DNA from: Chloroflexota bacterium
Lineage (GTDB): Bacteria > Chloroflexota > UBA11872 > VXNJ01
DNA length: 16,097 nt
NCBI GenBank assembly: GCA_026708165.1
Contig: JAPOVO010000198.1
Location: 2,961-19,057 of the forward strand
Direction of reading: 5' to 3'
The notes below the pieces were generated by a model that worked only from the letters and a program-made list of their open reading frames with translations, had not been told where the DNA came from and ran no database searches. This document shows positions 1,074 through 12,822 of this stretch, in pieces (the first letter of the stretch is position 1; each line of letters starts with the position of its first letter). A program made the translations under genes and the position numbers.

Positions 1074-4000
1074 CTATGACAACAAATCCGTGACAGCCGC
1101 TTCGACTGCCTTCCCTTCATCCGACTCCCGCAGCCATTTGCGGAGCTCGCGGCGGGCGATGGTTACGGTGACCTTGGAGCGGGTTTGGCGCAGCGACGCC
1201 AGCTCGCGTGCCGCGCCCTCGGCGGCGGCCCGACCAGTCTCGGATACCGCGACGTGCAGCGGATCGCCCGGATCGAACTCCGGGATGGGCAGCTTCCAAA
1301 GATGCTTCTGCAAATGGCGCGCGCCGAACTGCCCTTTGGGCATCAACGAGGCTACCGCCTCATATAGAACCTGACTGTTGATGATGGCAAGCAGGTAATG
1401 GGCTTCTTTAGTGTTCTTACAGGCAACCCAATACAGTGTGTAGTCGACGACTTGGTCATCCTCATGGAGGAGCGCCGCGGTTGGTGCGCCTGATTGGTTG
1501 TAAACCACCCTCACCGGCCGATCACCAAGTTTGCGCCGCCATTCCAGCTGAGCCGTGAGCTTGCCGTAGTAGTCCAACTGGCCGAGCAGGTTCAGCCTGT
1601 TGTTAGGCGACTTATTCTGTTCCCATAGGCCGCTCACAGTTCGCCAGCGCCCGCGCATCCGACGCTCCAGCCCGCCGAGATGAATGCCGCCGACGCCATC
1701 CGGATCCCCGGGTATTGCGGCATCATCCTGCCTGAGTGGCATAAGTGCCTTAAGCGGATTGAGCGTCGCATAAGGAACCAGCGTCTCGCCAAGGTGCACG
1801 TCGAAGAGGTGGCTATTCTCGACTGTCTGCTGCGTGATTGCGGTCAGGTCGACGTCGCGCCATGGCGCCTTGTCATATCTGCCTCGCCTCGGATTTACCG
1901 TCACCGTCTGACCAGCCCGAACGATGGCTGGACTCTCTGTCTCTTCCACAAACAGTAGACAGCGGGGAACTATCACTGCCCCCTGAGTCGAATAGCCCGC
2001 GTAGGGAGACCCGCCACCCACCGACGTGTCGGTTATGGCGGCTCGTTCGCGCCGGACGTCGGAAGCGCCCGCTTTGCCCAGCCACTGCTCCACTTCGCCC
2101 GCTAGCGCCGACTCCGCGCTCGGCTGGCCTACCCGCTCCGCGAACACCACCGAGGCCGGAATCGGGAAGAACGAGTTGGGTTGCAGCCGCTCCAGGTCCC
2201 AGGCGGTCTTCCACGCGAAGTCCACGGACAGCCTGCGCCCGGTTCGTTTGTCCGTCCATTCGCCAGAGCGCCACTTGGCGTACTGGCCGGTCTGTAGGGC
2301 GCTGTGCGGCATCACCATGCCGATCGTTCCACCGTCTTTCAAGTACAAGTCGACGCAGCGAGCGAAGAACAATCCAGCCACGTCCTGGTGGGTCGCGTAC
2401 CGTCCCCCGGCCCAGATCCCATAGATGTTCTTGCTCTGGTCTTCGAGCGCCTTGCGGAGTGTGCTGAGGGTCTTGTTGTAATTGAGCCAGGGCGGGTTGC
2501 CGATTATCACGTCCACCTTGCGGCGGGACAGCGCCACCGGACGCACGAGGTTACGGGTGTAGTAAGCCCAGATGTGGTCGCGCCCTTCGCCGTGCAACCT
2601 TTGTAGAGTCGCGATCGTCGCTTTGAGTGTATTGCGCTCTCCCGGAGCTGTGATGCCGTGATCGTCGAGTGCCAACTGGGGATCCTCACCGCTCTCGATC
2701 GCGTCGGCGATGTCGCCCATTAGCGCGTCGAACGTCTCGGCCCTGTCGACAAGGCCTATCGGAAACACCAACTCCGTGTTCGGATCGCCCTCGACCTGCA
2801 CCGTGACTTCATGCTCGGCGAACATGTCCCCGGTTCGTGATCGCAATTGGAGGGCGTCCCCTAAGTAGACGGGAACGGTGATGTTGGCGGCGAAGCCCGT
2901 CTGGATGGCTCCCTCGATGGCAGGTTGCGCGGCCAGTACCCATGCTGCACGAGCCAGGTGCACAGCCACGGGGTGTACGTCGATCCCAGTCACCGAGAAC
3001 CGCAGCCGTTCCAGTGTCTCTTGAGGAGCAACGGACTTGGCCTCGGCAGCTTCGATGAAGTGGGTGACCGCTTCCGCAATGAAGGTCCCGGAGCCACATG
3101 TCGGGTCGAGCACGTACTGGTCCAGCGGTTCGGTAACAACCTCGCGGACCATCGCCCGTGCCAGCCAATCCGGTGTGTAGTACTCGCCTAGCTGCCGCCT
3201 CTCGTCGGGCGGAATGACCGTCTCATAGAGAATGGCCGCAATGTCGTTGGGAGCTTGCGACCAGTCGAACTTTGCAACACGGCGCGCCAGAGTCCTGAGC
3301 ACGGACAGACCGTCAACCTCTGCAGGCCACGCGAAGAAGTCCGATTCGACAACTCCCTGCAACCCGGTTTTGCTCAGGAAGTCTCGGCCGTGCAGCAGGT
3401 CGCCAGGATCGGTCTCCGCGAGCCGGTATATGTCGGTGCCGAATGATGCCTGTACCACCATGCCGATGACCGCGCTCAGGTAGGTATGGCGGACAAACAG
3501 GCCGTCCATCTCAGAAGTTGAGCTGGCGACTTCTCCCAATGCCGCCGTCAAGAGGTTCTGCCACAGCTGACGTTTGACTTTGATGGTGCTGGAAGCCGCG
3601 TGCCTGTCGTAGAGCGCTTGTAGAACCGCTATGTCGCGTTGATAGGACGGGCTGCTGGGTCCGAATCGCTCCTCGACCGTTGGTCGAGACGGCAGTATGT
3701 TCTCTTCGGCCATAAGAGCATGATCGCGGAGCCATTCGTACAACGTGATCCAGCGATCGGGCTTTTCCAGTGTGAAAACATACGGTCTTACCGCTCTCAC
3801 TGCCCCGGCGCCAGGCCAGCGCAAGAGCCAATATTTGCCGTCGGTCAGGATGCCCATGCGTACCCGGCCTTGCTCCTGGGACTGCGCCAGGTAGTCGTCG
3901 AGTTGCCGAACGTTCCCGCGGTCGGGCGCGAAGCCTCCAGCGGTGCCGATCCTGCGCTTGAACTCGATGAAGGTGTCAAGCGCGGTCAGATCGACTGCGC

Positions 4001-4187
4001 GGCGCGACCCCTGGGCCGGTGGGTTTTCCTCGACGATTTCCTCGTCGCTAACCAAGCCGGTAACGGTGAGGAAGTTGCGGACCGCCGTGGTGATGTTGGC
4101 TTCGGGCTCGCCCTGATGATGCCTCCGCAGGATTTCAGCGGCCGCCTCCGCACAGTTCGGATCGTTGGGATCGATCTGCGTCATCAT
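1074..4187 (-). CDS. Type IIG-like restriction-modification fusion protein
   Basis: This 1037-residue protein joins DNA cleavage, adenine methylation and target recognition in one chain, as in type IIG (Eco57I-like) enzymes. An N-terminal PD-(D/E)xK nuclease site is visible as D66 followed by E75-F-K77 (VDL then TFIEFK). The helical linker leads to GEYYTP (334-339), the AdoMet-binding motif DPTCGSGTF (361-369), GIDVHPVAVHLAR (401-413), and the catalytic NPPW (564-567) of N6-adenine methylases. The last 170 or so residues resemble the target-recognition domain of TaqI/type IIG enzymes. All key residues are present, so it looks intact. No separate methylase or specificity gene adjoins it, as expected for a self-contained enzyme. 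The start is ATG 4187 (a second ATG follows directly); the ribosome site is weak. It sits between vapBC and an OLD-like ATPase, all on the minus strand. Recognition sequence cannot be read from the protein by eye. Confidence 0.92.
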   Translation of the reverse strand: MMTQIDPNDPNCAEAAAEILRRHHQGEPEANITTAVRNFLTVTGLVSDEEIVEENPPAQGSRRAVDLTALDTFIEFKRRIGTAGGFAPDRGNVRQLDDYLAQSQEQGRVRMGILTDGKYWLLRWPGAGAVRAVRPYVFTLEKPDRWITLYEWLRDHALMAEENILPSRPTVEERFGPSSPSYQRDIAVLQALYDRHAASSTIKVKRQLWQNLLTAALGEVASSTSEMDGLFVRHTYLSAVIGMVVQASFGTDIYRLAETDPGDLLHGRDFLSKTGLQGVVESDFFAWPAEVDGLSVLRTLARRVAKFDWSQAPNDIAAILYETVIPPDERRQLGEYYTPDWLARAMVREVVTEPLDQYVLDPTCGSGTFIAEAVTHFIEAAEAKSVAPQETLERLRFSVTGIDVHPVAVHLARAAWVLAAQPAIEGAIQTGFAANITVPVYLGDALQLRSRTGDMFAEHEVTVQVEGDPNTELVFPIGLVDRAETFDALMGDIADAIESGEDPQLALDDHGITAPGERNTLKATIATLQRLHGEGRDHIWAYYTRNLVRPVALSRRKVDVIIGNPPWLNYNKTLSTLRKALEDQSKNIYGIWAGGRYATHQDVAGLFFARCVDLYLKDGGTIGMVMPHSALQTGQYAKWRSGEWTDKRTGRRLSVDFAWKTAWDLERLQPNSFFPIPASVVFAERVGQPSAESALAGEVEQWLGKAGASDVRRERAAITDTSVGGGSPYAGYSTQGAVIVPRCLLFVEETESPAIVRAGQTVTVNPRRGRYDKAPWRDVDLTAITQQTVENSHLFDVHLGETLVPYATLNPLKALMPLRQDDAAIPGDPDGVGGIHLGGLERRMRGRWRTVSGLWEQNKSPNNRLNLLGQLDYYGKLTAQLEWRRKLGDRPVRVVYNQSGAPTAALLHEDDQVVDYTLYWVACKNTKEAHYLLAIINSQVLYEAVASLMPKGQFGARHLQKHLWKLPIPEFDPGDPLHVAVSETGRAAAEGAARELASLRQTRSKVTVTIARRELRKWLRESDEGKAVEAAVTDLLS

Positions 4188-4537
4188 CGCGGGGAACCGC
4201 CCTCAGCACATCTCAACTATCAGAAGAGCAGCTTCAGAATAGTCCAGTCTTATGTTGGAGACCTGTCAGACCGAGCGGCGGGAGCAACCGGAATACCTTA
4301 CGAAGCCTAGCGCCAGCGTGCGTCACTTGACCGTGACAGCTCTCAAAGTCTGAGCGCTCCGGGAGACGCCACCGCTGAGTGCGGGCCTCTTAGCTGCCCG
4401 TGCATCTCGGTAAGAAGCCCCAGCGTCCCTCGGTCACCACGCCAGCATCGGCGAGTCTTCACTCGGGTTTCCACTTCTCCATTCACTCGCTGAAGGGTGG
4501 CTTGCGACGTTGATTGGATCAAGCGATCTTCTAAGTC
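4188..4537. other. Non-coding gap upstream of the type IIG gene
   Basis: About 350 bp separate the toxin stop from the restriction gene start. I see no convincing ORF. A minus-strand TATTCT (4236-4241) could be a -10 box for the restriction gene, but no good -35 lies at the right distance. A small hairpin GTCAC/GTGAC is at 4322-4337. The restriction gene probably has its own promoter here. Confidence 0.4.
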
Positions 4538-4945
4538 TCAATACAACCCACTCAGCGCCTCGTGCGGGCTGACCGCGCGAATCGGAGACCGTTTGTAGTC
4601 CGCGACGTTTCTCGTCACGATGTGCCGCGCGCCGCACGAACGGGCCGCAGCGACCTGCATCGCGTCTTCAAAGTCCGTCATCGGAAGCTCGGCGGCGTAA
4701 CGGATGCCCTCCGTGTCGGTCGTCGCCACGGACACGAAACGGGTCAGGTCGAGGATGAAGTCTCGAGTGCTAACCCCGCCGCGCGACGGCGCGACGACGT
4801 AGTAGAGATTCGATATCGAGTGCCATGCGATATAGGCCCGCTCCGAACCGTGCTCGATCCGGTCCAGGAGCTCCGCGGCCGGACCTGAGTGTGGATGCCT
4901 GTCGAGGGCGAGGTCGATGAGAACGTCCGTGTCCAGAAGTATCAA
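4538..4945 (-). CDS. vapC: PIN-domain ribonuclease toxin (VapC-like)
   Basis: This is a 135-residue PIN-domain protein, the usual size of a VapC toxin, which cleaves RNA when not held by its antitoxin. It opens MILLDTDVLIDL with acidic residues D5 and D7, followed by the mid acidic cluster D91-F-E-D93 and the C-terminal TRNVADY (D116), typical of the PIN_3 group. The start codon is TTG at 4945; its last two bases overlap the antitoxin stop (TTGA), which indicates translational coupling. The gene lies directly downstream of its RHH antitoxin and shares its promoter. No residue expected in the active site appears missing. The family is clear; the RNA target is unknown. Confidence 0.9.
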   Translation of the reverse strand: MILLDTDVLIDLALDRHPHSGPAAELLDRIEHGSERAYIAWHSISNLYYVVAPSRGGVSTRDFILDLTRFVSVATTDTEGIRYAAELPMTDFEDAMQVAAARSCGARHIVTRNVADYKRSPIRAVSPHEALSGLY

Positions 4946-5166
4946 TCGAGATACTTCTCGGCCAGCGCTTCATAACGCGGGTCGTCGCGCTCCGCCGCTC
5001 GAAACTTGCCCCGCCATCGGGAGGCGAAGGAGGGACTACGCTCTCCCGTGACCTTCCTGAGCGACCGCTCTATGAGCGAGGAAAGTGAAACGCCGCGCGA
5101 GCGCGCGTAGCGCTTGGCTATCGGGAGTAGCTCGGCGTCCACGGTGATCGTGAGCTTTTGCTTCAT
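4942..5166 (-). CDS. vapB: Ribbon-helix-helix antitoxin (VapB-like)
   Basis: This is a 74-residue antitoxin. The N-terminus, MKQKLTITVDAELLPIAK, gives the beta strand and first helix of a ribbon-helix-helix DNA-binding domain, and SLSSLIERSLRKV the second helix. The basic, acidic tail (residues 45-74) would wrap the toxin. I chose ATG 5166; the longer frame up to 5232 would begin inside the promoter palindrome and is not plausible. It overlaps the toxin by four bases. Antitoxins of this type repress their own promoter, and a strong promoter with an 18-bp palindrome lies upstream. Confidence 0.87.
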   Translation of the reverse strand: MKQKLTITVDAELLPIAKRYARSRGVSLSSLIERSLRKVTGERSPSFASRWRGKFRAAERDDPRYEALAEKYLD

Positions 5167-5207
5167 CGGTGTGGCCGGTCCTTCGTATGTACACCACTCG
5201 CATTTCG

Positions 5208-5236
5208 AGTATACGTGTACCTCGAGGTACACTCAA
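5208..5236 (-). promoter_or_regulatory. vapBC promoter
   Basis: On the minus strand TTGAGT (5236-5231, four of six matches to TTGACA) and TATACT (5213-5208, five of six to TATAAT) are exactly 17 bp apart. Transcription would start near 5201, giving a leader of about 35 nt before the antitoxin ATG. AAGGA about 12 nt before the start is a distant ribosome site. Confidence 0.75.
5215..5232. promoter_or_regulatory. 18-bp perfect palindrome, likely antitoxin operator
   Basis: GTGTACCTCGAGGTACAC is a perfect palindrome filling the spacer between the vapBC -35 and -10 boxes. A further half-site GTACAC is at 5189-5194 within the likely leader. Binding of the RHH antitoxin here would block RNA polymerase. 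Position and symmetry are seen; the binding is inferred. Confidence 0.7.
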
Positions 5237-5266
5237 CGACTCGTATCTAGTTCGCGCCCGAGATCA

Positions 5267-6688
5267 TCACTCCGTTCCCGGGATTGCACTTGCTTCGGAA
5301 TTGGTAGACGCCCCGCAAGCGCCTGGCACTTCCGGGAACTCCACTAGCTGTCCCTTGGCAGCGAGAAACGCGGAGCGACATGCTTCTGCGTACTCGCTGT
5401 CATCACTTTCTTCGAGATAGGCCGCCGCTTCGAACATCTTGTGTGTGAGTACGAGTGCAAAACCGTTTCGCTTTGCGCTCGACATGCACTTCTCCGTAAA
5501 GGTTCGCGTCCTCTCTTCTGGATCGACGAGACGCTGTGGATTGCCGAAGAGGACGCCGTGAGCATGCTCGACGACGTCGCCCCTAGCGAAGTCCTCGGCA
5601 ATGTTTCGCTCAAGCTGAGTGATCTTGTCGATCGCGATCGCCGCGCTGTCACGTCCCTCGGCTTCTCCAAGCATCCGGCGCCCATCAATGGTGAAGACGG
5701 CATCAAACTCGGATTCGCCTTCTGCAATCCTTACGGCCTCTACGCCCATGAGCTTTAGTCCGCAGACCACTGCATCCTCCAGCAGCCGGCCCTGCGCAAA
5801 AAGCAGGCCCTGCAGAACGCTCCCGTCTTCAAGGGCTGCCAGCAGCTCTTCCCGTTGCCTGCGGGCTTGAGCCTCTGCTTCTTGCACTTTCAGCAATTCC
5901 TCTCGTAGTTTGTGCTGACCGGCTGTCTCGTACTTACCCGCCTGAGCCCAATCGGGCGGGGGCGAGGTGGGCCCTCCGCTCAACTGTGCGTTGACCTCCA
6001 AGAGTCGACGGACGAATTCGATGGAGTTCAGCCGGTAAGCCGACCCTCCTCTATTAACCCCCTTGCTGTCACGGAGGTTGATCGCCGGGAGCAGGACGAG
6101 GTGACCACCCCCTTGGTAGCTGACGACTCCGCTGACAACATGATTGGGGTTCTTGGTAGTTAGCAACGGTACTAGCCCCTTCTGAGGAGCAAAGCGCATC
6201 TCGTATTGTGAGAGTTGAGCGAACTTTTCCCAATACGGGTGCAGCACCTGGGAGCGACGCGCCACCCGGAATTCATCGCCAATGCCCGGTACGACGCCAT
6301 CCAGGTTGTACGGTAGTGCATCCATATTCGACTGCTCAGCGACCATCGTTGTGGACACCGCGCTGCGGCCCGTTCCCGACTGCTTGACCTCGCCTGTTCA
6401 ACGGTAAGCGACTCCAGGTGACGTGAGAACGACGAACGCCGTCTTCCCTCCCCCAACCACAGCGTGGAGTTCGTTTCGCCAGCGGCTGAGCAACTCCGTG
6501 TATTCGAAGGACTGGTGGTCGTCGAGAAGTGGCTTGCCGCGATAGGCCTCTAATACAAAAGGTGCAGTGGGCAGACCGAAGATGACCGCATCAGCATCAT
6601 CGAGAGACACTTCGGCTGAATGGTCGCATACCTCCGCCCTTGCATCACGATGGAGAGAGCCAATACCAACGGCGAAGAATCTAGTCAT
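5267..6688 (-). pseudogene. Nuclease-like protein gene interrupted by one in-frame TGA
   Basis: Two open stretches, 6688-6398 (96 aa) and 6358-5267 (363 aa), are in the same frame, separated only by TGA at 6400-6398 and 13 sense codons (TGEVKQSGTGRSA). Read through, the product is about 472 residues. The first part (IFGLP, DDHQSFEYTELLSRWRNEL, GGGKTAFVVL) looks like an alpha/beta domain. A coiled coil rich in Glu/Arg spans roughly residues 145-180 of the second part. Then SEFDAVF (D219) and GEAEG (E232, E234) with IDKITQLERN resemble a PD-(D/E)xK-like nuclease core. From memory, uncharacterised proteins of this design carry a TG...SGTGR segment at the very point where the stop falls, supporting one original gene. 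The function is not known. The alternatives are a sequencing error, a dead gene, or two separately translated proteins (a GTG at 6358 is the first possible restart). It lies directly upstream of vapBC. Confidence 0.7.
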
Positions 6689-7021
6689 GCAGACATCATT
6701 CCTGTATCGGATTGCTAGCCAATTATGGTACAGAGAGTCTGCGCGAAACTGCGGGTGGGCTTAGTGCCATTTACGCACATAGTCGGGGGCGTTCGATAAA
6801 CCTGCCCTTCCGAAGGTGTCGCGGCGTGCTTCCGAGGATTCAAGAACATGCTTCTCGGCACGGTCTGGCGATCGCGGGTCTGGCAGTTTACCGCGTCAAG
6901 CCGCCCCTATTCACACATGGTGGATGAAATGGTGCCAGTCCGTATCTGGTTGATTTCGGTCCGTTTTCGCCTTCGCTAGACAGTTGTCAGTTGCGCAAGG
7001 TGCATCCCAGGGACCGCATCG
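6689..7021. other. Non-coding gap between PepSY gene and interrupted nuclease gene
   Basis: About 330 bp with no ORF I can support. On the minus strand CATAAT (5/6 to a -10 box) sits about 40 nt upstream of the interrupted gene, without a clear -35. No strong hairpin with a T-run was seen. Confidence 0.4.
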
Positions 7022-7750
7022 TCAGGCAATCAGCACCAACAGCAAGAACACCACCAGCCCGCCAGCCGCTGTCGCCATTGTCGGCTTCCGTAGATGCGGC
7101 GCCGTCAATCCCATTACCAACCCGATCGCAACGATCACCAGCAACCCCACCGCCATCACTCTCTGGAAGTACTTGAAAAACCGAGGACCGTTGCCTCGGT
7201 GCAGCTCGACCATTCGCTTCTGTAGGTCGGGTTCGCGTCGCTTCAACTCCATCGTTCCGTCGGCCGCTATCGATATCTGGTAGTTGGTTCGCGATGTCGG
7301 CAGCGTCGTCACCGTCATGCCTCCCTCGACCGCCGTTTCCCGAATACCGTGTTCCTCCCCGTCGTGCGCTTCCCCTTCTTCGTGGTCTCCCTCTCCCTCT
7401 TCCGGCCTCGCGGCATCCTCGCCGTGGCCATGTCCGTCCTCACCCTCTTCCGCTCCACCGGCCTCCCCGTCGTGGACGTGCTCCTGCCCCGCCCTCGCTA
7501 CCACGATGTCCGAGAAGCTATGGTCTATTCCAGCCCTCCTCAGTATCCACTCCACATCTTCCTTCAGACTCGCCGACTTCACATCGAGCTTTCCTACTTC
7601 AGGCAGCTCGACCACCGTCGTCGTGTAGCTGCCTCTAGCGTCCGCTAGCTGCATCGCCCCAGAGATCGCCATCAGCAACACCACCGGCGCGAAGAACGCG
7701 GCCAAGTAGAGATGGACTCTGATCAATCGCTCCCGCGCGCGTGCCTTCAT
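7022..7750 (-). CDS. PepSY-type membrane protein with His/acid-rich loop
   Basis: This 242-residue inner-membrane protein has a first membrane segment at about residues 12-32 preceded by a basic end (MKARARERLIRVHLYL). A periplasmic PepSY-like region follows, with two more membrane segments at about 197-215 and 225-242. The ending LHRGNGPRFFKYFQRVMAVG followed by a hydrophobic stretch is typical of PepSY-associated membrane proteins. Residues 89-136 form a low-complexity loop of Glu, Asp, Gly and seven His, likely to bind metal ions. Short PepSY membrane proteins of this kind often accompany metal or heme/iron handling, but no such partner is visible here. ATG 7750 has an ideal ribosome site (AAGGAG, six bases away). 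The role is unknown; metal binding is an inference from composition. Confidence 0.75.
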   Translation of the reverse strand: MKARARERLIRVHLYLAAFFAPVVLLMAISGAMQLADARGSYTTTVVELPEVGKLDVKSASLKEDVEWILRRAGIDHSFSDIVVARAGQEHVHDGEAGGAEEGEDGHGHGEDAARPEEGEGDHEEGEAHDGEEHGIRETAVEGGMTVTTLPTSRTNYQISIAADGTMELKRREPDLQKRMVELHRGNGPRFFKYFQRVMAVGLLVIVAIGLVMGLTAPHLRKPTMATAAGGLVVFLLLVLIA

Positions 7751-8040
7751 CTCTGTCTCCTTCCCGACCGCTCGGTCTTGCCTAGTCCCAACTCTCGCAC
7801 CATCTTGTCCTGTGTGGGGCCTCTCTCCCCATCACCGGGTCATCCCTCCACGATGTGTTCTTCCAGTGCAGCAGCTCCCTCCTCGGCCTTGCAATTTTGC
7901 CCGCTTGCGGCTTCGCCCCCAAAGACGATCAGCCGATTCTGCGGGCGCCAATCAGCTTCGACTCGCATTCATAGTGCTTGCTATCAACGCAAACCAGAGC
8001 AATCGTCATGCGGACGTTCTTCCCCATCAAGGAGCCCGCA
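7751..8040. other. Intergenic region before the tyrosine recombinase
   Basis: About 290 bp between divergent genes. The plus strand is pyrimidine-rich. A possible hairpin pairs GCCCGC (7899-7904) with GCGGGC (7941-7946). It must hold the promoters of both neighbours, but I see no convincing -35/-10 pair. It is not a copy of repeats A and B. Confidence 0.35.
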
Positions 8041-8985
8041 ATGTCGACCGCTCAGACCACCTTGCCGACTGTCTTCTCCGGCGTTTCTTCAGGCTGGGAA
8101 TCCTCCCTTTATGCCTTCCTGGCCGAGAAACAGCGCAGGTCTGGCTCTGTCCGCACGCCCGACTCCTACTACCGCACTCTCCGCCATTTCTTCGGCTCCA
8201 TTCAGAAGTCGCCGGATCAGGTGTCTGCGCAGGACGTGTTTAGCTTTGCCCATGGCGTCGGCCTCTCGGGGCGTGAGCCTTCGCCGACTACCGTCAGCGC
8301 TCGTATCTGCTGTCTCTCTTCCTTCTACAAGTTCCTCATCAGGCTGGAACTCCTGACTTCCAATCCTTGCGATCCGGTGGATCGCCCGAGGATCCAACCC
8401 AGCGCTCCTCGCGGCTTGACTGCTTCCCAGGTGCAGCAGCTGCTTGGTGCCATACGCGATACGGTCAAGGGCAGAAGGGACCGCGCGATCGTCATCACTC
8501 TCATTCTTACGGCCAGGCGCAGGTCGGAGGTGATCAACCTGAAGGCCGGCGATGTCTCGTTCGACGACTCGGCTGTCTTCTATCGCTACCTCGGCAAGGG
8601 CGGTGTGCGGGGCAGGCGTGAGCTACCCACGCCTGCCCTGATCGCCATCCAGCGCTCGCTTGCCGATGTGGAGAAGGATCTCTCATCCATGCAACCTTCC
8701 GAGTCGCTCTGGCAGGCGGGGGCAGGCCCTTCGGGCGTCACGGCCTCTACCTTCTACAACCGCTTCCGGACTTACCTACGATTGGCCGGTCTGCCCCCCT
8801 CGGGCCTTCACGTCCTGCGCCACACCGCCGCCAAGCTCCGTCGTGACGTGGGCGAGTCGGTGGAGTCGGTGAGCCAGTTCCTCGATCACAGCTCGCTCGC
8901 GGTTACCACCACCTACCTCCGCAGGCTGGAGGGTCAGCGCGATGCCGCCTGGCAGGGTGTGGCCACCGTCCTCGGCTTGAGCTAG
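8041..8985 (+). CDS. Tyrosine recombinase / integrase (XerC/D-like)
   Basis: This 314-residue enzyme cuts and rejoins DNA through a tyrosine. The N-terminal SAM-like core-binding domain spans about residues 18-105 and the catalytic domain 125-310. The catalytic set is complete: R160 in TARRRSEV, K186 in YLGKGG, H257 and R260 in HVLRH, H283 in LDHSS, and the nucleophile Y292 in TTTYLRRL. ATG 8041 is chosen because AAGGAG lies six bases upstream; in-frame ATGs further up lack such a site. Repeat A starts nine bases after the stop. It is not recognisably an integron integrase. It may move its own small element or serve the island; its attachment site is unknown. Confidence 0.9.
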   Translation: MSTAQTTLPTVFSGVSSGWESSLYAFLAEKQRRSGSVRTPDSYYRTLRHFFGSIQKSPDQVSAQDVFSFAHGVGLSGREPSPTTVSARICCLSSFYKFLIRLELLTSNPCDPVDRPRIQPSAPRGLTASQVQQLLGAIRDTVKGRRDRAIVITLILTARRRSEVINLKAGDVSFDDSAVFYRYLGKGGVRGRRELPTPALIAIQRSLADVEKDLSSMQPSESLWQAGAGPSGVTASTFYNRFRTYLRLAGLPPSGLHVLRHTAAKLRRDVGESVESVSQFLDHSSLAVTTTYLRRLEGQRDAAWQGVATVLGLS

Positions 8986-8993
8986 CTCCTCCC

Positions 8994-9115
8994 GCCTCGG
9001 TCGTTCTCGGTTTTGCAGGGCTAGAATTCCTCCGGGTGGGGCGGCAGTTCCCGCTCCAACAAGCGTGTATTCTGCTGCCGCCCTGCCCTTCGGGCGAATC
9101 GGTGTATTCGCCATG
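8994..9115 (+). repeat. Structured direct repeat A
   Basis: About 120 bp, roughly three quarters identical by hand alignment to repeat B at 10002-10122. Arms 9034-9047 and 9075-9088 pair along 14 positions (two as G-U) around a 27-nt loop. A second hairpin, GGCGAAT 9093-9099 with ATTCGCC 9106-9112, is perfect. It sits between the convergent 3' ends of the tyrosine recombinase and the secreted-protein gene. Confidence 0.75.
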
Positions 9116-9165
9116 TCCTAGGTTGGATGTCAGGCGCGGCGACGGCACGGCATGTCCGCAACCGC

Positions 9166-9705
9166 CTACTCGCACTCTGCATACGTGATCCGCACCGGTA
9201 TCCGTCCGCGCGCCGGCCACTCCGTCCCGTCCAACTGCGCGAACAGCTCGGGAGTCAGATCGGCGATCACTCCCGCGTAGCTCACGCCCGCCTCTTTGCC
9301 TAGCGCCCCGGCGTCAGCCAGGTCGCCCGCCAGCGCGTCCAGCACCAACGCCGCCTCCTCCCTCCCGGTCTCCCGGTGCTGGATCGTAACCGTCCGCCCA
9401 AGCCAGCGCGGCTCCCACATCACCCGATGCAGTGCCGCCAGCCGGATCGGGTCTTCGATGCGAGTCTCCGCCGTGATCGACCCCCACTCTGCCCGGCGGG
9501 CCTGCCGCGCTTCCAACACCGCCTGCCACGGGTAGCTCCAGCGATCCTCGGTCGACCACGGCCCCACGTGCGATGCCCAGCCGACTTCCGTCTCTACCAT
9601 GCATTCGCCGTGCCCCGTCTCCGCGTCGCCGGCTCCCATCAGCATGACCGTCATGCCGCCTGCGATCCCCCACCGTAGCCACCTCGATAAAGCCGCGTTA
9701 CGCAC
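9166..9705 (-). CDS. Secreted double-psi beta-barrel-like protein (RlpA-like)
   Basis: This 179-residue protein starts with a basic end and hydrophobic stretch (residues 1-28, ending near GAGDAETG), a likely signal peptide. The C-terminal half (about 95-177) has the order of motifs of a double-psi beta-barrel as in RlpA: LGRTVTI, a TGREEAALVLDA strand, then IADLTPELFAQLDG and the closing IPVRITYAE. RlpA-type proteins act on the cell wall; whether this one does is unproven and sequence similarity is weak. The start is GTG 9705 with AAGGA seven bases upstream. The gene faces away from both recombinases and lies exactly between repeats A and B, which makes it the cargo of a possible repeat-flanked unit. 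An exported wall-active protein might help DNA transfer, but this is speculation. Confidence 0.6.
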   Translation of the reverse strand: MRNAALSRWLRWGIAGGMTVMLMGAGDAETGHGECMVETEVGWASHVGPWSTEDRWSYPWQAVLEARQARRAEWGSITAETRIEDPIRLAALHRVMWEPRWLGRTVTIQHRETGREEAALVLDALAGDLADAGALGKEAGVSYAGVIADLTPELFAQLDGTEWPARGRIPVRITYAECE

Positions 9706-10217
9706 TAGGCTGTCCTTCTTTTGGGGAAACGCCGCTCCCGGAAAGCCCGCGTGGGATCTGTCCAGCGCGTCTTTCGATCGATCGCTTCATGCATCGGTCT
9801 ACGTTTTGCAAAAGGGAACGGAGTCTCACTCTTCCTCCCGGGCCGGTTTGAGGCTGAGGTAGTTCTTTGCCATCGCAGACTGACGACTTGCTTGCTGCCA
9901 TGTTCCTTAACTGCCCTCAAGCTGCGCCGTAGCATTCTCCGAAGTCTCGCCAAAGCTTCGATTTTCAACTACCTGTCTGTAGCCTTCAACCAACTCGATC
10001 TGCCCCGGTCGTCTCTCGTCTCGCAGGTCTAGAATCTGTCCGGGGGGGGCGGCGGTCACCGCTCAACCGGCGTTTATTCCTCTGCCGCCCCGCCCTTCTG
10101 GCGGATCGGCGTCGTTGCTATGGCATCACTCCCGCGGGACGCCGCTCCGCCTTGATCTATTCGGCCTTCCGAGCGTTCATACAACCTGCTCCTATATCCC
10201 TTACCTAGGGAGGTCAT
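9706..10217. other. Gap before the serine recombinase, containing repeat B
   Basis: About 510 bp. Repeat B takes up 10002-10122. The remaining 300 bp (9706-10001) hold ORFs of up to 103 codons on both strands, but none has a ribosome site, known motif or plausible composition. The last 95 bp are the leader of the serine recombinase. Confidence 0.4.
10002..10122 (+). repeat. Structured direct repeat B
   Basis: This is the second copy of repeat A, offset by 1008 bp. Arms 10042-10055 and 10082-10095 pair at 13 of 14 positions around a 26-nt loop. The second hairpin keeps five of seven pairs, three as G-U. It ends about 95 bp upstream of the serine recombinase start. Confidence 0.75.
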
Positions 10218-11804
10218 ATGACCAGTCCAATGGTCCGCATCGCTACCTATGCCCGCGTCTCGTCTGACGAACAGCGCGACCGCCATACGGTCCTGAACCA
10301 GCGCGCGGCACTGTCTCGCAGGCTGGCTTCTGAGTCTGGTGTCGTCGTGTTCCGCAATTACGAGGACGATGGGGTGTCGGGGACGATCCCCCTTGAACAG
10401 CGGCCTATGGGTGCCGCTCTGGTCCGTGATGCCGGCGCGGGCCGCTTCTCCCAGCTCTGGGTGGTCCGCTCGGATCGCCTGGGTCGCGACGCCTTCGAGC
10501 TCCTCCGCATCTGGAGGGTGTTCGAGTCTATCGGTGTCTCTTTACGTGCCACGGACGAGAATATCGATGATCCCTTCTACTTCGATATCCATGCGGTCAT
10601 AGCCGCGAATGAGCGGCGTAAGTTCCTGGAACGCTCCGCGGAGGGTATGAACCGGGCTGCGCGTGAGGGACGCTATACGGGCGGGATCGTGCCTTTGGGC
10701 TATGTGGTCTCGGGCGATAGGGGCGCCAAGTATCTGATTCCGGACGACTCGCTGATGTGGTCTGACTTGTCTGCCGCTGACGTGATTAGACGCATCTATG
10801 ACCACCTCGCCTCAGACGGCTGGAGCTGCAGGCGTATCGCGGACGAGTTCAACTCCCTCGGTATCCCCACTTCGTATCGCCGCGCTGGCCGCGGCGTTCG
10901 CGGTAAACGCACCCAGGGCCTCTGGCGCTCGGGCCACATCCGCAACCTCGTCCACAACACCGTCTACAAGGGCGTCCTCCAGTTCGGGCGTCGATCAACC
11001 CGGCCGAACGGCCGTGAGGTGATCTCGGCCTCTGTGCCTGCTTTGGTCTCTGAGGAAACCTGGGACGCCGCGATCGCCGCTCTCAAGCGCAACCGCATAT
11101 CCGCCACCTCTTCCCGCCGCTTCTACCTCCTCCGCTCCCTCATCCGTTGTGCCGTATGCGGACTCTCCTTCTGCGGTACCTGGGCCAGGTCCAAACCGCG
11201 CTATCGCTGCAACGGCGCCATGGTCGAGCGCGGCCCCTTCCCGGGCAAATGCATCGGCGCTTCCATCAGGGGCGACAGGTTGGAGGCCGTCGTCTGGTCG
11301 GATGTCTGCCGTTTCCTCACCGACCCCCAGCCTCTCGTCGATGAGCTTGAGGTCGAGAACGGGAAGTTGGAGGACTGCTCTGTCGCTCGGCCTGAACGCG
11401 ACTCGCTCTTGGAGGCTCGCTCGGCAGTCCAGGACCGCCGCAAGCGCGCCATCGACCTCTACGTCCGCGCCTTGATCTCCCAGCCGGAGTTCGATGCCAT
11501 CGTCGGTGAAGTGGATGAGGAGCTGGAGTCGCTGGATGCGCGGCTGGCCGATCTCGAGACCAATGCCGACGCCCTGGATGACGTCCTCTCCGAGGAGGTG
11601 CTGGCGGAGCTCCGTGAACGCCTCGCTCAGGACCTCTCAAACGAGGAACGACACGAGATCGTTAAGCTGCTAGTGCGTCGCATCACGGTCCACACGACCA
11701 AGCCCGACGACGGCCGCAAGCAGGTCCAGGTCGTCATCGACTACAGGTTCCCTACAGCAGAGGCGACTGCCACCCGCACGGATTCATGGCTGCCACGAGC
11801 ATAA
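10218..11804 (+). CDS. Large serine recombinase (site-specific integrase)
   Basis: This 528-residue integrase recombines attachment sites through a serine. The resolvase-type catalytic domain is at about residues 6-150, with YARVSSDEQ (likely nucleophile S15) and RSDRLGR (R84, R87, R90). The recombinase domain follows to about 290, starting [11 protein letters not shown] zinc ribbon has C311, C314, C331 and C345, then a charged coiled coil at about 425-475 and a C-terminal strand VVIDYRFP. Length and order match family integrases. ATG 10218 has GGGAGG four to five bases upstream. The last nine residues (from R520) and the stop are encoded by antisense comM sequence, so the gene overlaps comM and marks the attachment junction. 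It almost certainly inserted the island here; no recombination directionality factor is seen. Confidence 0.95.
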
Positions 11805-12822
11805 ACCGTGCCGGCAGCACTGCGGTCGCCGCGGCCCGCGCTACCGTTATGTCGCCCTCCTCCAGCGGCTGCCGCAGCGACTCGAGCGAAACGCGATCGA
11901 ACTCCGGAAACTCGTCCAGAAAGAGCACCCCGCGGTGCGCCAGACTGATTTCTCCAGGGCGCGGCACGGTTCCGCCTCCCACCAGCCCGGCATGGGAAAT
12001 CGTGTGATGCGGAGACCGGAACGGTCGTTCGGCAACCAGCGACACGCTTCGCGACAGAACTCCCGCCACGCTGTGGATCTTGGTCACTTCCAGTGATTCA
12101 TCGAACGTCAGCGGCGGCAAAATCGACGGCATCGCCCGCGCTAACAGCGTCTTGCCCGTTCCCGGCGGACCGACCATCGCGACGTTGTGACCTCCCGCCG
12201 CCGCGACTTCCAGCGCGCGCTTTGCGTGCTCCTGCCCGCGAATGTCGCGCATGTCCGATCCGTACGTATCCTCGGCCCCTGGCACCGATTCCTCGACATG
12301 CGGCTCGATCTGTATCAAGCCGTTGAAATGAGCCACAAGCTGCTGCAACGAATCGACCGGATAGATCGTCATGCCGCGCACTGCTGCGGCCTCACGAGCG
12401 TCTTCGGCTGACACGTACGCCGTGTCGAATCCAGACTCCTGGCCAATCGCGACCATCGGCAGCACTCCATTGGAGTGACGCACGCCGCCATCCAGCGAAA
12501 GCTCACCGAGAAACAGCGGCCGCTCGTTGCGCAAAACAATCTGCCCCGAAGCAGTCAGAATACCGACGGCCATCGAGAGATCGTGAACGCCGCCCTCCTT
12601 GCGGACGTCCGCCGGCGCCATGTTGACTGTCACCCTTCTGTTCGGAAACAAGCACCCGGAATTCTTGATTGCCGCGCGCACTCGCTCGCGAGCCTCCTGC
12701 ACCGCCGCGTCGGGTAGCCCCACAACATTGAACGCCCCCAGACCCCGGGAGATATCAACTTCTACCTCGACCGGAACGCCTTCGAGGCCGATGAGAGCGC
12801 AACTATGCACTTTTGCGAGCAT
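11752..12822 (-). pseudogene. comM: comM (yifB), 5' part, truncated by island insertion
   Basis: The 356-residue product is the front of ComM, a Mg-chelatase-like AAA+ helicase that promotes branch migration in natural transformation and recombination. The N-terminal domain (1-170) and AAA+ core are normal: Walker A GPPGTGKT 218-225 and Walker B GVLFLDEF 298-305. Homology stops after MNPC (346-349), where ComM proteins continue with PCG and about 150 more residues. The remaining GWQSPLL and stop come from the island. ComM should be inactive because sensor residues and the C-terminal domain are lost. ATG 12822 matches the conserved [10 protein letters not shown] start. The 3' part is not in the window. 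Confidence 0.93.
11766..11785. other. Island/comM attachment junction (att half-sites)
   Basis: comM homology ends at the codon TGC (11778-11776) and recombinase-side DNA begins at about 11775. The crossover must fall within a few bases of this point. Intact comM usually has a CCGTGC-like repeat here (encoding PCPC), so the exact base is uncertain. Confidence 0.7.

Follow-up and report, generated by a model that had tools for sequence, protein, structure and literature searches.

Two diverged copies of a non-coding segment beside the recombinase genes of a Chloroflexota island resemble a duplicated control region more than an RNA of known type or a recombination site

What are two related non-coding stretches of about 120 bp (A and B) doing on either side of a single gene that itself lies between two recombinase genes? 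This arrangement was found in the window, the whole stretch of 16,097 nucleotides analyzed here (G000:C484:2961-19057), which comes from a draft genome of 505 contigs with 84.5% completeness. The gene order is tyrosine recombinase (YR; +), A, a gene for a protein of 179 amino acids (-; cargo), B, large serine recombinase (LSR; +), and the N-terminal part of comM (-). An earlier note had offered three readings of the pair: a non-coding RNA family of such elements, recombination sites defining a cassette, and leftovers of a duplication. The coordinates, common orientation and similarity that it gave for A and B were confirmed (79.6% identity over 113 nt with an E value of 2.5e-20, using blastn against the database of fetched loci; starts 1008 nt apart), as were the two neighbors, which were assigned by Pfam to the tyrosine and serine recombinases. 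The features are summarized in Table 1.

Table 1. Features of the YR-cargo-LSR region, with positions in the window.
Feature	Positions	Strand	Description and basis
Tyrosine recombinase (YR)	7978..8985	+	335 aa; Pfam PF00589
Repeat copy A	8994..9115	+	Directly after the YR stop codon; blastn/nhmmer, alignment, fold
CTAGAAT in A	9021..9027	+	-10-like block; putative promoter
Main hairpin of A	9034..9088	+	14 pairs; 27-nt loop with inner 4-pair hairpin
Second hairpin of A	9093..9112	+	7 pairs
Cargo gene	9166..9705	-	179 aa; no known family
Repeat copy B	10002..10122	+	95 nt upstream of the LSR start codon; blastn/nhmmer, alignment
CTAGAAT in B	10029..10035	+	-10-like block; putative promoter
Main hairpin of B	10042..10095	+	13/14 pairs; 26-nt loop with inner 4-pair hairpin
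Second hairpin of B	10100..10119	+	5/7 pairs, 3 G-U
Large serine recombinase (LSR)	10218..11804	+	528 aa; PF00239, PF07508, PF13408
comM (YifB), N-terminal part	11752..12822	-	PF13541 and truncated PF01078

A and B are copies of one another: the alignment score between the stretch after YR and that before LSR was 105, and none of 200 shuffles reached it (maximum of 33). A 59-nt ungapped core (9057/10064; 78%) was also the first direct repeat listed in the window. Overall, 29 of the 118 aligned columns differed; the main stem, with 28 columns, contributed just 3 of these differences. In the 5' part, 11 of 36 columns differed, yet the blocks CGGTCGT and CTAGAAT were identical; conservation peaked in the stem and in these two blocks, and the longest identical run was 9 nt. 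A is found on the sense strand of YR, between the convergent YR and cargo genes; B, on the sense strand of LSR, is not between convergent genes. CTAGAAT stands upstream of the hairpin at an equal distance in both copies. Its two occurrences in the window (mean of 0.83 by chance) were not rare, given 42 of 200 shuffles. A consensus promoter scan found no promoter, and neither A nor B was listed by a terminator scan.

A stem of 14 positions around a loop of 26-27 nt had been described as kept in both copies. It was complete in A (9034-9047/9075-9088; 12 Watson-Crick and 2 G-U pairs), but not in B (10042-10055/10082-10095), in which one G-G mismatch was found. On the minus strand, the corresponding stem retained 12/14 pairs in both copies. 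The claim that both also keep a second hairpin was generous because that of B is reduced relative to that of A (Table 1). The consensus fold furthermore contained an extra helix (8999-9005 with 9093-9100, at the same place in B), which uses the 5' arm of the second hairpin and competes with that hairpin as drawn in the earlier note. With regard to the changes between copies that had been said to preserve pairing, G-U to G-C and A-U to G-U were present, but a U-G to G-G change broke one pair, and three random changes in the stem left at least 13/14 pairs in 41% of simulations.

Support from folding energies for a plus-strand structure was moderate and, over all folds, mixed; the earlier note had argued from these changes for a plus-strand RNA. 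The plus-strand consensus fold had a z-score of -3.36, with none of 300 column shuffles as low, while the minus-strand fold had a z-score of -1.83, with 13/300 as low (i.e., it beat 287); these column shuffles apply to an alignment of only two sequences and do not keep dinucleotides. The SCI was matched by 5/300 shuffles for the plus strand and 19/300 for the minus strand. Among the single sequences, A folded better than its shuffles (z-score of -2.83, 0/200 as good), whereas B did not (z-score of -0.85, 43/200 as good). No double-sided change was found between A and B, either in the consensus structure or in that of the earlier note. A plus-strand structure for A and B is plausible because the consensus fold beat all 300 plus-strand shuffles, but covariation does not demonstrate it.

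Further copies were sought in several collections. In the assembly itself, a DNA search and the covariance model built from the pair found two copies only, both in the slot between YR and LSR, and the other DNA matches to the repeat were of 18-22 nt (E values of 0.1-0.7). Among 300 relatives, the covariance model found no third copy under strict filters. Nine weaker matches besides A and B (E values of 0.0017-0.097 per genome) were obtained, whereas as many as 30 could be expected from chance alone in 301 genomes; all nine were aligned, and seven were set aside by score only. The two others, in G049, were rejected because their untranslated DNA resembles, by eye, coding regions of two genes, one transporter-like and the other of flagellar type. 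The repeat had no match in Rfam at the gathering level or at E values of up to 1, and no A/B member was found in the related YR-LSR loci by an nhmmer profile or the covariance model. No viral contig matched either of two exact repeat-specific patterns. A third pattern was found in four viral contigs, but matched only part of the loop, with flanks that were nearly identical among the four, and was discarded. Plasmids had no match to positions 8980-10240 of the window; phages gave two 33-nt matches to A (E value of 0.5) and no YR match at an E value of 1e-20. Viral contigs yielded nothing in scans with single YR and LSR proteins, while a scan with a YR alignment yielded six loci; three of them (L104-L106) enter the comparisons below. 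The outcome that the earlier note had named as refuting, namely, no further homologue with covarying stems, was thus obtained in the collections searched, and its interpretation is supported only in part. Because of this outcome, and because the pair was unique among 12 YR-LSR slots (see below), the proposal of a non-coding RNA family was not supported. Since no further copies appeared in these collections, the pair looks more like a control region that was duplicated locally.

The YR matched the XerA, XerC and XerD models of NCBIfam with scores under their cut-offs, and the integron-integrase model TIGR02249 only partially, with 35 bits against a cut-off of 265; proteins up to 93% identical to it exist. 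The cargo protein, with an N-terminus that appears signal-peptide-like by eye, had no match in Pfam or NCBIfam. It was represented in the protein database by seven clusters (that of the window and six with 60-84% local identity), was found in one of 400 genomes searched (its own), and had no match in viral contigs. The LSR has resolvase, recombinase and zinc-ribbon domains and adjoins a split comM; a scan of genome contigs with LSR gave one distant relative. The N-terminal part of comM is truncated beside the 3' end of LSR, and the C-terminal domain of comM (PF13335) had a single match in the genome, on another contig (G000:C146:2695-2985). Because the N-terminal part lies beside LSR and the sole PF13335 match is on that contig, the island was very probably integrated in comM, with the window containing its LSR end; the second contig may carry the other end.

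Several other observations concern the gene content of the island. The comM C-terminal domain on the second contig adjoins a long frame that is primase/helicase-like by eye. Further genes on the island side of the window were found at two places (1074-4187 and 4538-5232). An N6-methylase/Eco57I-type protein on this side was recognized by domain match and may belong to a restriction-modification system, and a PIN-domain gene with a small ORF upstream is toxin-antitoxin-like, the putative antitoxin being assigned by position.

The arrangement of YR, cargo and LSR recurred. A second unit in the same genome (L040, on G000:C137) has a YR and an LSR with 90% and 69% identity, respectively, to those of the window, and carries a different cargo with neither A/B repeats nor a leader like B. 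Among 26 YR loci, including partial ones and ones cut by contig ends, 12 had a co-oriented LSR 1.2-5.2 kb downstream (tblastn); the queries were four LSRs from these loci, and 4 of the 12 positives were therefore obtained by construction. The two sets of genomes drawn for the phylum appear to share most of their members. L089 also has a serine recombinase (by ORF and Pfam), which runs off the contig end. The 3' end of LSR overlaps an opposite-strand tRNA gene in L041 (tRNA-Arg) and L042 (tRNA-Pro). The genes in the slot differed among loci with listed ORFs, while L086 and L104 have approximately 2.4 kb upstream of LSR in common. The earlier note had suggested looking for further copies beside recombinases; when 12 YR-LSR slots were tested, a repeat joining the two ends was found in that of the window only and in none of the 11 others, the next lowest chance count being that of L096 (9/200).

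Separately from A and B, a block of 70-124 nt is shared by three of these loci (L086:3596-3719, L087:3037-3159 and L104:6585-6654, oriented), with that of L086 being 84% alike to each of the other two. It lies approximately 145-680 nt past the YR stop codon, has no match in Rfam at the gathering level, and represents a further candidate for a non-coding element in islands of this type.

The position of A directly behind YR coincides with a mostly sharp boundary in the relatives. Fifty-three YR pairs with an identity of at least 0.78 over the final 60 nt ahead of the stop codon (the only pairs listed; they share loci and are not independent, and L043, L044, L091, L102 and L103 were left out) showed an identity of 0.50-0.72 in the next 60 nt. 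The random identity for this post-stop segment had a mean of 0.56, a standard deviation of 0.05 and a maximum of 0.68, which was exceeded by only one of the 53 pairs (L087/L104, 0.72). The YRs of the window and L040 fell from 0.83 before the stop codon to 0.62 after it. In L089 (G393:C60), a full YR is followed by four extra YR 3' ends of 116-171 nt (spans for the full YR and the extra copies together, oriented: 1062-1274, 2402-2566, 4336-4458, 5915-6085 and 8564-8707); these are on the same strand, each closes at the stop codon, other sequence and genes lie between them, and the serine recombinase is located beyond them. L089 looks like a cassette array with the 3' end of the integrase gene as its junction. 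A search of L089 positions 4459-8707 (oriented) against 107 family genomes, in which two candidates per genome were scored, found non-self matches in the YR 3' ends, with the exception of a 53-nt match in G425 within a cassette gene.

Using the last 56 residues of YR, 30 matches were obtained in 13 genomes: 21 full or nearly full YR frames and nine solo 3' ends, of which seven were in G393, one in G309 and one in G321. Those outside L089 were G393:C123:19237-19404 and 20272-20364, G393:C84:9438-9599, G309:C20:4365-4532, and G321:C68:58843-58935, the last of which is weak and close to where its contig stops. The solo copies begin at varying points: 116-171 nt before the stop codon in L089 and L138, and about 330-345 nt before it in the first copy of L137, L139 and L106; in the second copy of L137, the match is split and the similarity persists for approximately 15 nt past the stop codon. 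Similarity was lost at or just after the stop position in all nine YR 3' ends read, and a stop codon was present there in eight, the exception being L106; L140 and L098, both from G321, stayed alike for approximately 55 nt past it. As a separate observation, L106 (733-1064) has a YR 3' end that, at the place of the stop codon, continues into the central part of a gene for a serine recombinase.

Judged from sequence comparison, this pattern is consistent with site-specific joining close to the YR 3' end; alternatively, elements may have accumulated there and later undergone deletion. Because identity drops after the stop codon across the pairs and L089 carries four extra YR 3' ends, the junction seems to be a property of this YR family. 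The 56-residue search found no solo YR 3' end in the genome of the window. By eye, the stretch upstream of B had suggested a degraded copy of this end, which scored 28 against a null mean of 31.8 and was rejected. As there is no solo copy and none is detectable before B, the junction is tied to A and B by position only.

We tentatively favor, with a probability of approximately 0.4, a leader or UTR element that was duplicated together with a cargo segment of approximately 1 kb, or by duplication of the leader, and that has partly kept its structure. A and B would be diverged copies of one non-coding segment of approximately 118 bp, folding on the plus strand and situated in the YR-cargo-LSR end of the island. 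B would form the leader at the 5' end of the LSR transcript, with the -10-like CTAGAAT just upstream of the hairpin, and A a second copy behind YR, brought with or left by the added cargo. The ~1-kb segment, consisting of one leader copy and the cargo gene, may have been added to the YR-LSR slot; alternatively, the leader itself may have been duplicated. Within the recombinase transcripts, the partly kept structure may act in cis as a leader or UTR element. The assignment of B as a leader is favored because it lies on the sense strand near the LSR start, because the spacing of CTAGAAT is the same in both copies, and because conservation is highest in the stem, CGGTCGT and CTAGAAT. Against it stand the second unit of the genome, which lacks such a leader, the null result of the promoter scan, and the fact that a pair of CTAGAAT blocks is not rare, together with the 11 slots without the pair, the shuffle-like fold of B and the zero double-sided changes.

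A passive leftover, which is possible though somewhat doubtful, would be either a functionless trace of the duplication or a hairpin terminator (A, between the convergent YR and cargo genes) with B as its relic. The last of the readings in the earlier note, it fits the data at least as well as the other two: there are just two copies, with no homologues in the collections searched, the main stem retains no more pairs than random changes would leave (0.41), and the second hairpin has decayed in B. On the other hand, a functionless trace does not sit well with a plus-strand fold that no column shuffle equaled, and a terminator is at odds with the terminator scan, which listed neither copy, and with the location of B outside any convergent pair. 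A non-coding RNA family that is free-standing in these islands could draw on the preference for the plus strand and on the pairs retained through G-U changes; this is improbable given that neither the 300 relatives (under strict filters) nor Rfam nor the related YR-LSR loci supplied a third member.

Recombination sites bounding a cassette, inserted behind YR by YR itself or another recombinase in an integron-like manner, are rather unlikely, although more is to be said for them than for the RNA family. One gene is closely bracketed between YR and LSR, the genes of the slot vary among the loci read (L086 and L104 with their common stretch aside), 52 of the 53 YR pairs diverge past the stop codon, and L089 has its extra YR 3' ends. 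However, the 11 other slots tested have no A/B-like pair, and the recombination-site reading of the earlier note was thus not established. The junction that is repeated elsewhere is the YR 3' end, which is not A-like and is not detectable before B, the longest identical run between the copies spans 9 nt, YR does not qualify as an integron integrase under NCBIfam, and A and B each lack one of the two integron boxes. A related proposal takes the stretch after YR as the cassette-loading slot of a non-integron YR with its junction at the YR 3' end, in which cargo genes would pile up ahead of the serine recombinase, the junctions being YR 3' ends in L089 and A/B here; we consider this about as improbable as the RNA family.

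Overall, the A/B pair resembles a locally duplicated control region more than it does an established class of RNA or a recombination site. If A and B are leaders, the island may control its serine integrase through them; if they are sites, they would belong to a cassette system independent of integrons. The main value of the locus lies in its context, namely, a recurring island end with YR, cargo and LSR, and relatives with a junction at the YR 3' end that is sharp in most cases and repeated in some.

Among known systems, integrons with their attI and attC sites are similar in that the gene after a YR is enclosed by two related stretches containing imperfect inverted repeats. The R'' and R' boxes of the attC type have the consensus RYYYAAC and GTTRRRY; A and its flanks contain only GTTRRRY (9122), and B and its flanks only RYYYAAC (10061). 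The locus also differs from integron arrays in that YR is far below the IntI model, the single cargo gene is on the opposite strand, and the two copies are the only sites found. Structured 5' leaders, such as riboswitches and attenuators, resemble B in that a folded stretch lies downstream of a -10-like block and ahead of a start codon (here that of LSR), but differ in the absence of an Rfam match, in the second copy located after another gene, and in the lack of covariation. LSR-integrated islands are similar in that LSR occupies the island edge and its 3' end reaches or lies within the presumed target gene (comM here, tRNA-Arg in L041 and tRNA-Pro in L042); they differ in that, in 12 of the 26 YR loci, a YR is present 1.2-5.2 kb further inside.
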